Of a stretch of DNA of 36,190 nt, positions 97-4,390 are shown in pieces. The position numbers and the translations under genes are program-made. Under the pieces are notes generated by a model. It was not told the origin of the DNA and did not search any database. It was given only the letters and a program-made list of their open reading frames with translations. The DNA comes from Candidatus Hydrogenedentota bacterium (GTDB lineage Bacteria > Hydrogenedentota > Hydrogenedentia > Hydrogenedentales > CAIZGN01). How positions within the stretch are numbered: the first letter of the stretch is position 1; each line of letters begins with the position of its first letter. Location of the stretch: NCBI GenBank assembly GCA_903932505.1, contig CAIZGN010000464.1, forward strand, positions 1 to 36,190, written 5' to 3'.

Positions 97-903
97 TCAT
101 GAACAGCCGCTGCCAGTGGAAGACCTGCACCGCTGGTTTGCCTGATGCGGCAAAAACCACGTAATATCGCTTGCTTTCAGCCCTGTTGGCTCGAGGGCTT
201 TTTGCGTCGCTTCACCAAACGCCAGTACCGCGCGCTTGTACAGCGCCCGGCCGTCCATAATCACGGTCATCTCCGCCTCATTGACATTGTCCGGCGTGAT
301 AATCTGCTTCGTACCCCCCGCAGGAATGCAAAGAATATCCCCCGCGCTGCCATCCGCGTTCGTGTACGTCGACAGGACCCCACGGCCCGTGAAATCGGCA
401 CGAAGCACGGCGGCACCCGATCCATCCCCAAACAATATCGCGGTATTGCGGTTCGTGAAGTCCAGCCTCGCCGTCAACACCTCCGCACCCACCACCAGTA
501 CCGTCCGGTGTGTACCGCCGCGAATAAACGCGTCCGCAATCTGAAGCCCGTACAGAAACCCCGAACACGCCGCGTTGATGTCCATCGCGCCTGAGTTCTT
601 GATCCCCAACTTGTGCTGCATCACACACGCGGTCGCTGGAAACAAATAGTCCGGCGTGATCGTCGCGCAGATAATAAAGTCCACCTCGCTGGGTGAAACG
701 CCCGCCGCATCCAGCGCCCGCTTCGCCGCTACCGCACCCAAATCTGATGGTCCCGTCCCAGGTTCCGCCATGTGCCGCTGCACAATTCCGGTGCGTTGAC
801 GAATCCACTCGTCACTTGTGTCCATCAGGTGTTCCAGGTCTGTGTTGGTTACCACCTTATCCGGCAAACACCGTCCGGTACCAATAATGCGTGTTCGAAT
901 CAT
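97..903 (-). CDS. fabH: beta-ketoacyl-ACP synthase III (FabH), C-terminally truncated
   Basis: FabH condenses acetyl-CoA with malonyl-ACP to start fatty acid synthesis in the cytoplasm. The 268-residue product has the family N-terminus (GTGRCLPDKVV, residues 8-18), the nucleophile cysteine in AACSGF (C113) and the histidine in LPHQAN (H253). Complete FabH is about 320-335 residues and carries a third catalytic residue, the Asn of a YGNTS-type motif. Here similarity ends just after HQANQR and a stop follows 11 codons later, so that Asn and the last ~55 residues are missing. The ATG at 903 is chosen because the residues after it match the family N-terminus and AGAGGA lies 6 bases upstream; an upstream GTG would add seven residues. 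A separate promoter is visible at 993-1022. It is either a pseudogene or the product of an assembly break near base 130. Confidence 0.85.
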   Translation of the reverse strand: MIRTRIIGTGRCLPDKVVTNTDLEHLMDTSDEWIRQRTGIVQRHMAEPGTGPSDLGAVAAKRALDAAGVSPSEVDFIICATITPDYLFPATACVMQHKLGIKNSGAMDINAACSGFLYGLQIADAFIRGGTHRTVLVVGAEVLTARLDFTNRNTAILFGDGSGAAVLRADFTGRGVLSTYTNADGSAGDILCIPAGGTKQIITPDNVNEAEMTVIMDGRALYKRAVLAFGEATQKALEPTGLKASDITWFLPHQANQRCRSSTGSGCS

Positions 904-992
904 GATTATCCTCTTCGCGACCACGCGGAATATCCGCCGTTATGCCCGCGCATCCGCGAGCGCCAATCTCCCCAGAGAAAATTCGACGCTTT

Positions 993-1022
993 ATTATTCA
1001 ACGTCTAACAGTATGATGTCAA
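993..1022 (-). promoter_or_regulatory. sigma-70-type promoter for fabH
   Basis: Read on the minus strand, TTGACA (1022-1017) is followed after 18 bases by AATAAT (998-993), a perfect -35 and a 5/6 -10. It lies about 90 bases upstream of the fabH start, inside the 184-base gap after the PAS gene, so fabH can be transcribed independently. This is a consensus match only. Confidence 0.55.
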
Positions 1023-1087
1023 TCATAAGGAGTGGGATTTTCAAAGTAGTGCTGAATGAAGAATACAACCCCCGCCCAGACGTAGCC

Positions 1088-1705
1088 CTACGTTTTCCCG
1101 TAGTGCTCTTCCATGCAGGTCGGGCAGACCCCATGACTGAACATCGCTTCCGAGTGCTCACTGACAAAGGTTTCCAGATTGCTCCAGTACCCTGCATCAT
1201 CGCGAATTTGCTTGCAGAACGAGCAAATCGGCACGATCCCGCTCAACACCTTGATTTGAGCCCGGGCCTCTTCCAGCGCGCGATTCTTTGCGGAAAGTTC
1301 ACGGGTGACATTGAGAAGGTCATTGGACATCCTCGTCATCTTTTCCACGGACTCGTCTTTTGCCACCAGAGGTTGCCCCCCCAACAGAAGATAGCCGGAG
1401 GAGGTTCTGTAGACAGCACAATCGAGCGAAAAGAGCGTTTGGTCGGGGGCAATGAACGTCAAGCGCCGCCCCGACCCGGCCAACGGGTCGCTGAACGGAT
1501 GGTCACCCGGAGTCTCCAGAAGCAGGTAATCCAGCACCGGCCGACCTGAAAAATCCACCTCGCCCGACATCAAACGGGAAAAGGCACCGTTGCAGGCCGA
1601 TATGTTGATCTGCTCATCAAGCACGACCACGACGACATGCCCGACGGTGTTCAAATAGTTCTCAACGACTTCGGGCGGATAAGGATGAGGGAGGGGTTCA
1701 GGCAT
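1088..1705 (-). CDS. PAS-domain protein with C-terminal four-cysteine module
   Basis: The 205-residue soluble protein has an N-terminal PAS-like sensory fold (about residues 12-115), a short helical, probably coiled-coil linker (about 116-152), and a conserved tail. The tail begins LSGIVPICSFCKQIRDD and contains two CxxC pairs (C161/C164 and C194/C197). From memory, this module ends many PAS and response-regulator proteins; the spacing suggests metal binding, but its biochemical role is unsettled. No kinase, GGDEF or DNA-binding domain is visible. The ATG at 1705 is preferred because it overlaps the upstream stop by 8 bases (ATGCCTGA); a longer start at 1747 would overlap by 50. The gene follows the cobalamin-binding protein in the same operon, so the two probably act in one signalling route. 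PAS ligand and output are unknown. Confidence 0.75.
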   Translation of the reverse strand: MPEPLPHPYPPEVVENYLNTVGHVVVVVLDEQINISACNGAFSRLMSGEVDFSGRPVLDYLLLETPGDHPFSDPLAGSGRRLTFIAPDQTLFSLDCAVYRTSSGYLLLGGQPLVAKDESVEKMTRMSNDLLNVTRELSAKNRALEEARAQIKVLSGIVPICSFCKQIRDDAGYWSNLETFVSEHSEAMFSHGVCPTCMEEHYGKT

Positions 1706-2819
1706 AATGACTTCGATCCCACTGGTTCGCAACTTTCTTCGCGCCATCGATGCTTAGCGCAAAACCATCCGCACCAAGATCTGCCCAACGATCCTCATAG
1801 CCCGCCAAACCACGCCCACCCACCATGATCTTCGTGTACTTGAGCAAAAAATGCGCCCGCAGCGAACCGATGATGGCCCTAGCTTTCTCGACATTAAAAG
1901 GCATGGTGACCGAAATGGCGAGCACATCCGGGCGGAAAGTCGACAAGGACTCCATCAACTCGGTTTCCGGCACATTCGCGCCCAGATAGCGCACATCCCA
2001 GCCATCGTTCGCTAGAATGTCGGCAATCATCCACGCCCCGATCTCGTGAAACTCGTTCGGTGAAGAGGTGACCACAAGCCTGCCCTTGTGTTTCGATGAC
2101 TGGATGACCGTCATGCTCACCGTCGCCATAATCTGCCCTACAATGGCGGAAGCAAGATGCTCTTGGGCGACCGATATCTTCCCTTGTTCCCAAAGCATAC
2201 CAATTTCATACAGGACTGGCCGGATAACTTGTGCGTAAAAGGGCTCGACATCGGAGGGCACCTTCACATGTTCTTGGGCAAGCGCATTGCATTGCTCCCG
2301 CTCGCCAGCGACTAGGAGTTTCTCAAACGTACTCCGCATCGCCAACCATTCGGGCTTCAAAGGCATTTCATAGTTCAAATCGGATTGGGCAAGCTGTACG
2401 AAGTCCTCATGGTGCTCAATGAACCAGGCATAAACCACACCGATGCTTTTCCTCGAAATCTCGCTTAAATAGGTGTCCACCGCCCCCTGCCACCCCTGAA
2501 GCTGCACGAGAAAATAATCCCAGGAAAATCCGTTCGAATGCAGCAGACGATAAAGCCACGGGGCCATCTTGCAAAGGCAGTCGTAATCACTGAGCGCAAA
2601 AATAGTCGACATGAACGTGCCATGTTGCACATGATTATTCTGCATCCTGGTCACAGGATTGCCGCCAATAAGCAAATCCAGCGGCCCCGCGCTGGAAACG
2701 GCGTCATCCACATACTGAACCATCTCAGGGAGATGCAGCCTATACTCGGCCACTGCGGCAAAGGGGACGCACGGCAAACGCTCGGCGTCGCTCAATAAGT
2801 CATCCGTCACCACACTCAA
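1698..2819 (-). CDS. Cobalamin-binding photosensor-like protein without DNA-binding domain
   Basis: The 373-residue protein has a helical N-terminal region (about 1-160) with conserved-looking NNHVQH and WLYRLLHSNG stretches, a B12 cap domain (about 165-245) and a Rossmann-like B12-binding domain (about 247-365). The cap holds W210 followed, nine residues later, by E220-H221: the W-x9-EH signature of CarH/LitR photoreceptors, in which Trp and Glu pack against adenosylcobalamin. The B12 domain holds E256-F-H258-E-I-G261, the ExHxxG form whose His is the lower cobalt ligand. The residue after W210 is Glu, whereas the light-state His ligand of Thermus CarH sits there, so the photochemical outcome may differ. 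No MerR-type helix-turn-helix is present. TTG at 2819 is the start: AGGAGG ends 7 bases upstream. Light or B12 sensing is inferred from the motifs. Confidence 0.8.
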   Translation of the reverse strand: MSVVTDDLLSDAERLPCVPFAAVAEYRLHLPEMVQYVDDAVSSAGPLDLLIGGNPVTRMQNNHVQHGTFMSTIFALSDYDCLCKMAPWLYRLLHSNGFSWDYFLVQLQGWQGAVDTYLSEISRKSIGVVYAWFIEHHEDFVQLAQSDLNYEMPLKPEWLAMRSTFEKLLVAGEREQCNALAQEHVKVPSDVEPFYAQVIRPVLYEIGMLWEQGKISVAQEHLASAIVGQIMATVSMTVIQSSKHKGRLVVTSSPNEFHEIGAWMIADILANDGWDVRYLGANVPETELMESLSTFRPDVLAISVTMPFNVEKARAIIGSLRAHFLLKYTKIMVGGRGLAGYEDRWADLGADGFALSIDGAKKVANQWDRSHYA

Positions 2820-2906
2820 ACCAGCACCTCCTGAATTAGTCGTCTAAAGCAGCTATAACAACGAGATCCTTCATTATAATCCCCACTTCGATCTTGTATA
2901 TTTCCA

Positions 2907-2935
2907 ATGCTATCAAATTTCTCGAAATGAGTCAA
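2907..2935 (-). promoter_or_regulatory. Candidate promoter of the cobalamin-sensor/PAS operon
   Basis: On the minus strand TTGACT (2935-2930) is followed after 17 bases by TAGCAT (2912-2907). A second -10-like TATAAT lies closer to the gene at 2878-2873 but lacks a good -35. The TTG start codon is at 2819. The intergenic region is AT-rich compared with the coding regions. Consensus match only. Confidence 0.35.
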
Positions 2936-2978
2936 CAAATAACCAATTCAGCGCGATGATGAGGTTCGCAGCCCGGGG

Positions 2979-3008
2979 TTGCAGGCGACTGCGGCCTTGG
3001 GGTATGCT
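2979..3008 (+). promoter_or_regulatory. Weak candidate promoter of the lipoprotein gene
   Basis: TTGCAG (2979-2984), an 18-base spacer and TATGCT (3003-3008) form a weak sigma-70-like match 75 bases upstream of the lipoprotein start. A small hairpin follows in the presumed leader (GTGCGG 3017-3022 with CCGCAC 3030-3035). Confidence 0.25.
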
Positions 3009-3082
3009 TTCATCCCGTGCGGAGAAATCCCGCACCTTGGGCGCTTCAAAGTCAACCTGTGTGAGACGAAAGGAAAATAACC

Positions 3083-3745
3083 ATGAAGAATGCGATGCTG
3101 ATTGCCCTATTAATGGGCGGTTTGTTCTTGGGTACGGGCTGTGGCGACAGCTCCAAAGCCATCAATGTCACCGAAACGCGTGTTAAGCCCCCGGCGGAAA
3201 AGGCGGCCACCCTGGCCGATCCTGCGCAAAATGCGGCAAATCCACATGCGGGCATGGACATGAACGCTATGGGCGCTATGGGCGCGATGGGGGCTCCCGC
3301 AGAGAACTCTCTCAAACTTGAATGGGACGCGCCCGCCGAATGGGAAGCCAAGCCCGGCACCTCCATGCGGGTGGCCAACTTTATTGTCAAGGATCACCCG
3401 GATACCCAGTGCTACGTCGCCGTCCTCGCCGGTGCCGCTGGTGGCAAGGAAGCCAACATCAACCGTTGGCAGGCCGAGCAAATGGGCCAGAAAGCCCTCA
3501 CCCCTGAAGAAATTGCCGCGCTGCCCCAGCTCGACGTGCTTGGGCAGAAAGCCCCCTTCCTGGAAGTCTCTGGCAGTTTTTCGGGTATGAGCGGCGAGGC
3601 CGCAAAAGATGCCACGCTCTACGGTGCCGTTTGCGAACTCGGCGCGCAGACCGTCTTCATCAAAATGACCGGCCCCCAAGCTGTGGTACAGACTCAAAAG
3701 GATATCTTCCTGAACTTCTGCAAGACCCTGCGTACTGCGAAGTAA
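3083..3745 (+). CDS. Predicted lipoprotein of unknown function
   Basis: The 220-residue product begins with a lipoprotein signal: KN, a hydrophobic stretch, and LGTGC with C20 as the acylation site. A low-complexity segment (about 45-75) contains a Met-rich run with GAMGAMGA repeats. The C-terminal ~145 residues form a globular domain with W-rich signatures (WDAPAEW, then INRWQAEQMGQ). I associate this pattern with small secreted proteins found in planctomycete-like genomes, but no function is established. AAAGGAAA precedes the ATG. The gene is a single transcription unit: it is divergent from the cobalamin-sensor operon and ends at a strong terminator before the flagellar promoter. The Met/His-containing segment could bind metal, which is speculative. 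Confidence 0.75.
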   Translation: MKNAMLIALLMGGLFLGTGCGDSSKAINVTETRVKPPAEKAATLADPAQNAANPHAGMDMNAMGAMGAMGAPAENSLKLEWDAPAEWEAKPGTSMRVANFIVKDHPDTQCYVAVLAGAAGGKEANINRWQAEQMGQKALTPEEIAALPQLDVLGQKAPFLEVSGSFSGMSGEAAKDATLYGAVCELGAQTVFIKMTGPQAVVQTQKDIFLNFCKTLRTAK

Positions 3746-3991: not shown

Positions 3992-4390
3992 GTGGACGCG
4001 TTTGGAGGTGTCGATACGATCCGGCTTTTGACCGGCGGACTCAAAACCGCCGAGATCAACCATCGCCTGATCGCAAACAACATCGCCAACGTGGATACCC
4101 CCAATTTCTCGCCAACGACGCTGGACTTCGAAAAGACCTTACGCGACAATCTCGAGGGAAGGGGCGGGTTTGCTCTCCGCACGACCCGACCCCGACACCT
4201 CGACTTTCGCGCGGAACGTCCACAATTCGAACGTCTTGCATTTTTGTCCAAAAATGATTACAATAAAGTAGACATGGACGAGCAGTTGGCGAAGTTGGGT
4301 GAAAACGCTTCTCGGTATACGACTTACGCACGATTGCTCAGAAAGAAATTTGAAACCCAGAAGAGCATGTTGAGTGCGCTCGGACGTTAA
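3992..4390 (+). CDS. flgB: Flagellar basal-body rod protein FlgB
   Basis: FlgB forms the proximal rod of the flagellum. The 132-residue product is of normal length and carries the rod-protein N-terminal motif ANNIANVDTPNF (about residues 29-40), used in export and helical packing, and a C-terminal amphipathic helix. The GTG at 3992 is the start, with GAGGAG 8 bases upstream. It is the first gene behind the sigma-54 promoter and lies 11 bases before flgC, the usual flgB-flgC-fliE order. Confidence 0.9.
   Translation: MDAFGGVDTIRLLTGGLKTAEINHRLIANNIANVDTPNFSPTTLDFEKTLRDNLEGRGGFALRTTRPRHLDFRAERPQFERLAFLSKNDYNKVDMDEQLAKLGENASRYTTYARLLRKKFETQKSMLSALGR

Follow-up and report, generated by a model that had tools for sequence, protein, structure and literature searches.

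The locus analysed here raises the question of how a CarH-like cobalamin protein that carries no DNA-binding domain could pass on its signal, and to what. In the window, which is the whole stretch of 36,190 nucleotides that was analysed, a first-pass annotation had described a cobalamin sensor and a co-translated partner. Both open reading frames were found on the minus strand, the sensor at 1698-2819 and the partner at 1088-1747. The partners of related sensors begin near Met15 of this frame, and thus the partner probably starts at 1705 and not at 1747. The genes and their signals are as follows.

1698-2819, minus strand: sensor gene, 373 amino acids, an N-terminal domain and a cobalamin-binding domain made of a cap and a Rossmann part (open reading frame, Pfam, relatives)
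2827-2832, minus strand: ribosome-binding site AGGAGG of the sensor gene, 7 nt ahead of its TTG start (sequence)
1088-1705, minus strand: partner gene, encoding a PAS domain, a coil and a four-Cys module (frame open to 1747; starts of relatives)
1698-1705, minus strand: overlap of the sensor stop and the partner start, ATGCCTGA, 8 nt (sequence)

The TTG start codon of the sensor lies at 2819, and the ATGCCTGA overlap suggests that the translation of the two proteins is coupled. The W-x9-EH motif was seen once in the window's 167 long open frames, as was C-x2-C-x29-C-x2-C. The pair had also been placed beside a flagellar cluster, and flagellar genes (Flg_bb_rod proteins, FliE, FliF and FliG) do begin at 3992. 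This proximity looks incidental: inspection by eye revealed that the relatives lie in unrelated gene contexts, and a role in motility, suggested by the flagellar neighbours, was dropped. On the other side of the pair, a FabH-like gene (97-924, minus strand) stops after its HQANQR motif at the contig end and is probably incomplete or cut by an assembly edge.

Pfam recognised only B12-binding_2 and B12-binding in the sensor, and the domain was resolved into the following features.

2121-2324, minus strand: B12-binding_2 cap, four-helix, residues 166-233 (Pfam)
2157-2192, minus strand: adenosyl-pocket signature W210-x9-E220-H221 (sequence, alignment)
1767-2081, minus strand: B12-binding Rossmann domain, residues 247-351 (Pfam)
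2046-2048, minus strand: H258 in N-E-F-H-E-I-G, predicted lower axial cobalt ligand (sequence, alignment)

The positions given earlier for W210, E220, H221 and H258 proved exact, and these residues were invariant across 14 full-length sequences, as was G207, which completes the cap signature (GxxW and W-x9-EH). The published light signature of AdoCbl-dependent photoreceptor cobalamin domains includes GxxH and GxxxP (PMC11796333). GxxxP was present in the sensor as G280-x3-P284; GxxH was absent and replaced by N255-x2-H258, with the Asn invariant in the 14 sequences. Database mining with the published signature would therefore overlook this clade. Glu211, the residue next to W210, is invariant in the sensor family and occupies the column of TtCarH His132. 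The earlier suggestion that a Glu in place of this second cobalt-ligating His implies different photochemistry was weakened, because CtMerR, SasPcob and AbDPcob, which respond to light in experiments, have Arg, Gln or Tyr at the equivalent position (PMC11796333); since these proteins vary there too, Glu211 alone is no evidence of a new mechanism.

The top Foldseek matches of the whole sensor were the light-responsive CtMerR, SasPcob and CarH, in a search that was dominated by the cobalamin domain and did not address the fold of the N-terminal domain. In a cobalamin-domain tree, the sensor stood apart from the CarH clade of its own phylum (support 100/100); it fell with photocobilin and split domains on deep branches that were poorly resolved. 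The NCBIfam scores could be taken to mean that the sensor is a corrinoid methyl-carrier protein of a methyltransferase system, as MtgC (63.4 bits) came near CarH (68.1 bits), both far under their cut-offs. However, the methyl-carrier proteins of related genomes lacked W-x9-EH and formed a clade from which the sensor was separated with a support of 100/99, and its conserved neighbours are signalling partners and no methyltransferase. We consider a methyl carrier extremely improbable, and this identity was rejected on the signature and the tree; a grouping with corrinoid methyltransferase proteins, which the first-pass annotation had named as the finding that would speak against it, was thus looked for and not found. 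The first-pass reading of a cobalamin domain of CarH/photocobilin type, with no DNA-binding domain, was supported. Of 18 genomes, 17 encode an adenosyltransferase, among them the window's own.

The region ahead of the cobalamin domain had been described as about 160 helical residues in place of a MerR domain.

2376-2768, minus strand: N-terminal helical domain, residues ~18-148, probably of divergent photoglobin type (alignment, model, profiles)
2634-2636, minus strand: Asn62, in the column of SasPcob Asp270 (profile mapping; role of Asp270 from PMC10979010)

The helical character was borne out by a well-predicted structure model, and in residues 1-160 Pfam gave no match and no MerR DNA-binding domain. 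Searches with this domain against Pfam, NCBIfam and PDB sequences returned chance matches only. Profile comparison refined the description. By hhalign, the domain aligned with a pooled photoglobin set at a probability of 78 and a score of 37.5, and 100 column-shuffled controls scored at most 16.5. The largest contribution came from the N-terminal region of split-locus partners (45.3), and bona fide photoglobins alone gave 21-23. The HMM of the domain also matched, in the same register, the canonical N-terminal photoglobin of a photoglobin-cobalamin protein in genome G227 (E 3e-4). These results suggested, with moderate confidence, a divergent photoglobin-type domain. Its invariant residues are N62, H63, H66, F69, M70, W88 and Y90.

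This relationship would fit a full photocobilin, whose N-terminal domain would bind a bilin (biliverdin or another) so that the pair senses several colours; heme oxygenase is indeed encoded in the window's own genome and in G127 and G268. In SasPcob, Asp270 and Trp296 were described as biliverdin contacts (PMC10979010). When the SasPcob chain was mapped with a residue offset inferred from His108, the Trp296 column corresponded to W88, but the Asp270 column held the invariant Asn62. Furthermore, heme oxygenase was absent from all 14 pair genomes tested, and from G092 and G131, in a search that covered the PF01126 family only and in which most of the 14 were MAGs of unstated completeness. The copy in the window's genome accompanies a different sensor on a separate contig. 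Because the Asp column is an invariant Asn and PF01126 is absent from the 14 genomes, bilin is probably unused by the sensor; a bilin-binding photocobilin was disfavoured on the same two grounds and appears quite improbable.

Two loci with heme oxygenase were recorded in addition. The second operon of the same genome (L110, 631-3811 of contig C740) encodes a W-x9-EH cobalamin protein and a PAS-coil-histidine kinase, followed by a heme oxygenase and then a response regulator; the C-terminal extension of this heme oxygenase resembles photoglobins weakly (E 3.6e-4). In G268 (contig C247; L105, 1072-2169), a 365-residue protein with up to three photoglobin-like repeats adjoins a cobalamin-domain protein, and the same contig carries a heme oxygenase at a distance of about 5 kb.

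A scan of GTDB contigs yielded 16 full-length sensor relatives (L069-L084; best-segment identity 35-44%) from Desulfobacterota, Spirochaetales, Candidatus Sabulitectum (Fermentibacterota), Chitinivibrionales and Myxococcota. Further members were found in the cultured Ilyobacter polytropus DSM 2926 (Fusobacteriota) and in G092, G127 and G268 of a domain-wide sample. The N-terminal domain profile matched seven of the 386 sampled genomes; within the window's own phylum it matched two other genomes of 68, both without a cobalamin domain in the same frame. The pair was kept across at least six phyla. The first-pass annotation had proposed checking how often the two genes co-occur, and a PAS-type partner lay directly downstream in 19 of the 21 fused sensors, i.e. 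the window, L069-L084, Ilyobacter, G092, G127 and G268; the sensors of L072 and L074 (Desulfamplus) had none. The Myxococcota sensor of L079 (3134-4449) occupies two frames that overlap, which probably reflects a frameshift in the MAG. In Ilyobacter, a cultured anaerobe and thus suited to bench work, the full-length relative overlaps a PAS-coil-GGDEF gene (L092, 1925-3968; pair WP_013388897/WP_013388898).

The output of the partner varied. Four-Cys modules were found in 13 of the 19 partners of fused sensors, GGDEF domains in five (L080, L081, Ilyobacter, G127 and G268) and histidine kinases in two, one beside a fused sensor (G092) and one at a split locus (G131). At the latter, the cobalamin protein, the PAS-histidine kinase and the N-terminal domain are three overlapping genes, an arrangement that supports a functional link among them. 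The output swap falls at a single point, immediately past a conserved helix that follows the PAS domain.

1364-1666, minus strand: partner PAS domain, residues 28-128 (AlphaFold2 model and Foldseek; PAS_9 in relatives)
1274-1351, minus strand: conserved coil, residues 133-158, KMxxLxNEMxNxxRELQRKNREL, proposed docking helix (alignment, HMM searches)
1097-1252, minus strand: four-Cys C-terminal module, C175-x2-C178-x29-C208-x2-C211 (sequence, profile searches)

The PAS domain and the C-x2-C-x29-C-x2-C tail claimed earlier were both present in the partner, with the start site moved. Pfam did not recognise the PAS domain in the window's protein; the assignment came from three relatives that score as PAS_9 and from the AlphaFold2 model, which matched solved PAS domains by Foldseek, PpsR among them. 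The tail had been described as lacking a recognised output domain, and searches of Pfam, NCBIfam and PDB gave it no relatives beyond chance matches; a literature search with words from its sequence found no paper. The description was improved to that of a recurring C-terminal module. Its core is a fixed 37 residues in 32 of the 33 proteins listed, its position is always C-terminal, and it is joined to REC, PAS, GAF, HAMP/Cache, 7TMR-DISM and regulator-propeller inputs. It occurred in 118 of 386 genomes (about 30%, in a sample in which the window's own phylum is over-represented). Because kinase or GGDEF domains occupy the same place, the module is most likely an output or adaptor, and it probably binds zinc. 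Elsewhere in the same genome (contig C19; L007, 1450-2127 and 61-1431), a cobalamin-type protein without the EH residues adjoins another four-Cys protein, and G055 (L024) has the same arrangement; these proteins are perhaps a non-adenosyl variant of the same sensor-partner idea.

The helix between PAS and output keeps 31% identity across output types, and the mean identity of the PAS domains is 15%. A 26-residue HMM of the helix, trained on 13 four-Cys partners only, was searched against the 2049 open reading frames of the collected loci. All 11 held-out matches at E<0.05 adjoin W-x9-EH cobalamin genes, and the next match had E=1.1. The held-out matches were four-Cys proteins with a different N-terminal region (L011, L010), GGDEF proteins (L092, L080, L081, L104, L102) and histidine kinases (L106, L107, L110, L101). 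The motif was absent from 29 other four-Cys proteins inspected, and among the 2049 frames the HMM missed two GGDEF partners, those of G127 and G268. When 386 whole genomes were searched, the top six matches (E up to 6e-5) all adjoined W-x9-EH genes; weaker matches were mostly short, generic RELxxKNREL stretches without such a neighbour. The helix also extends to the group of canonical photoglobin-cobalamin proteins, since these have the coil-bearing proteins of L101, L102, L104 and G347 (L130) as partners. The L101 locus (952-3321), on a plasmid of the well-studied cultured strain Azospirillum brasilense Sp7, has a photoglobin-cobalamin gene followed by that of a coil-bearing histidine kinase.

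Previous work has reported that the cap domains of AerR and AppA contact the Q-linker helix of the PAS proteins CrtJ and PpsR (PMC9144470). With this precedent, the specificity of the coil and its conservation through the output swaps, the best reading is that the helix would be the docking site of the sensor. Linkage to a PAS partner was supported, and action through protein-protein contacts, as first suggested, is probable.

From the observed gene pair, residue signatures, domain swaps and helix specificity, we infer cobalamin binding, a light response, docking and the role of the four-Cys module. We lean towards a two-protein, photocobilin-like signalling unit in which the sensor would act in trans through the coil. 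In the dark, adenosylcobalamin would sit between the cap and Rossmann domains, with W210/E220-H221 on one side and H258 on the other. On illumination, the Co-C bond would break and the sensor would take up another conformation or oligomeric state; the N-terminal domain, a divergent and probably bilin-free domain of photoglobin type, would protect the corrin or pass the change on. Next, the sensor would engage helix 133-158 of the partner and switch the output behind it, here the four-Cys module and in relatives a diguanylate cyclase or histidine kinase. A stand-alone photocobilin is known to alter diguanylate cyclase activity in trans (PMC10979010). Against such a unit stand the NxxH in place of GxxH, the partnerless Desulfamplus sensors and the two partners missed by the HMM; in addition, many relatives belong to anaerobic lineages of a sediment type, which may seldom meet light.

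The mostly anaerobic relatives, the NxxH motif and the absence of PF01126 from 14 pair genomes would also fit a sensor of cobalamin status (adenosylcobalamin level or redox state) that uses the same partner and docking helix without responding to light, and SAerR binds several cobalamins irrespective of light (PMC9144470). We regard this reading as rather unlikely, though clearly the strongest competitor: the adenosyl-contacting W/E/H signature is invariant, and the genome's second W-x9-EH protein belongs to a heme-oxygenase operon, which suggests that the organism uses tetrapyrrole photoreceptors.

For the favoured light-responsive unit, the closest known kind of sensor is the photocobilin (SasPcob, AbDPcob; PMC10979010), which shares the W-x9-EH cobalamin domain and probably a photoglobin-type domain. 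In contrast to photocobilins, the probable globin-type domain here is N-terminal and divergent and has Asn where SasPcob has the bilin-contacting Asp; heme oxygenase is usually absent from the pair genomes, and the pair has a dedicated co-translated effector with a conserved proposed docking helix and a four-Cys output. CarH/LitR proteins share the cobalamin fold and adenosyl-pocket residues but differ in their MerR DNA-binding domain, in the His132 that is Glu here and in their separate clade. AerR/PpaA and AppA-SCHIC likewise have a cap domain, of cobalamin or heme type, that does not bind DNA; AerR is co-transcribed with a PAS protein and AppA acts on one, by contact with a helix next to PAS, to which the pair is likened. 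Unlike CrtJ/PpsR, however, the partner is no transcription factor and its outputs are swapped, and the sensor has a probable globin-type domain at its N-terminus. BBAG-2 globins (PMC10151467) show a genetic link between globin and B12-binding protein similar to the split loci here, but they bind biliverdin, and genes for heme oxygenase and bilin reductase belong to their clusters. The pair would accordingly be a new form of photocobilin-like sensor with a trans effector, in which light sensing, cobalamin binding and docking are predicted.

A broader proposal, to which we give slightly less than even weight, is that bacteria use a B12 photosensor kit of the plug-in type: a globin-cobalamin sensor would act in trans on any effector with the docking helix, and the four-Cys module would be a widespread, undescribed output. 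If true, B12 photoreception would work through swappable effectors recognised via a short helix, which might be grafted onto kinases or cyclases for green-light control. Photocobilin-like sensing would reach apparently bilin-free, largely anaerobic lineages, and about 30% of the sampled genomes would have an unannotated output module behind PAS, GAF, REC, HAMP and 7TMR-DISM inputs. Finally, on Streptomyces plasmids (L088, L094, L099), photocobilin-like genes were found flanked by a PP2C phosphatase gene and a STAS-domain gene, which suggests that they control a partner-switching stress pathway.
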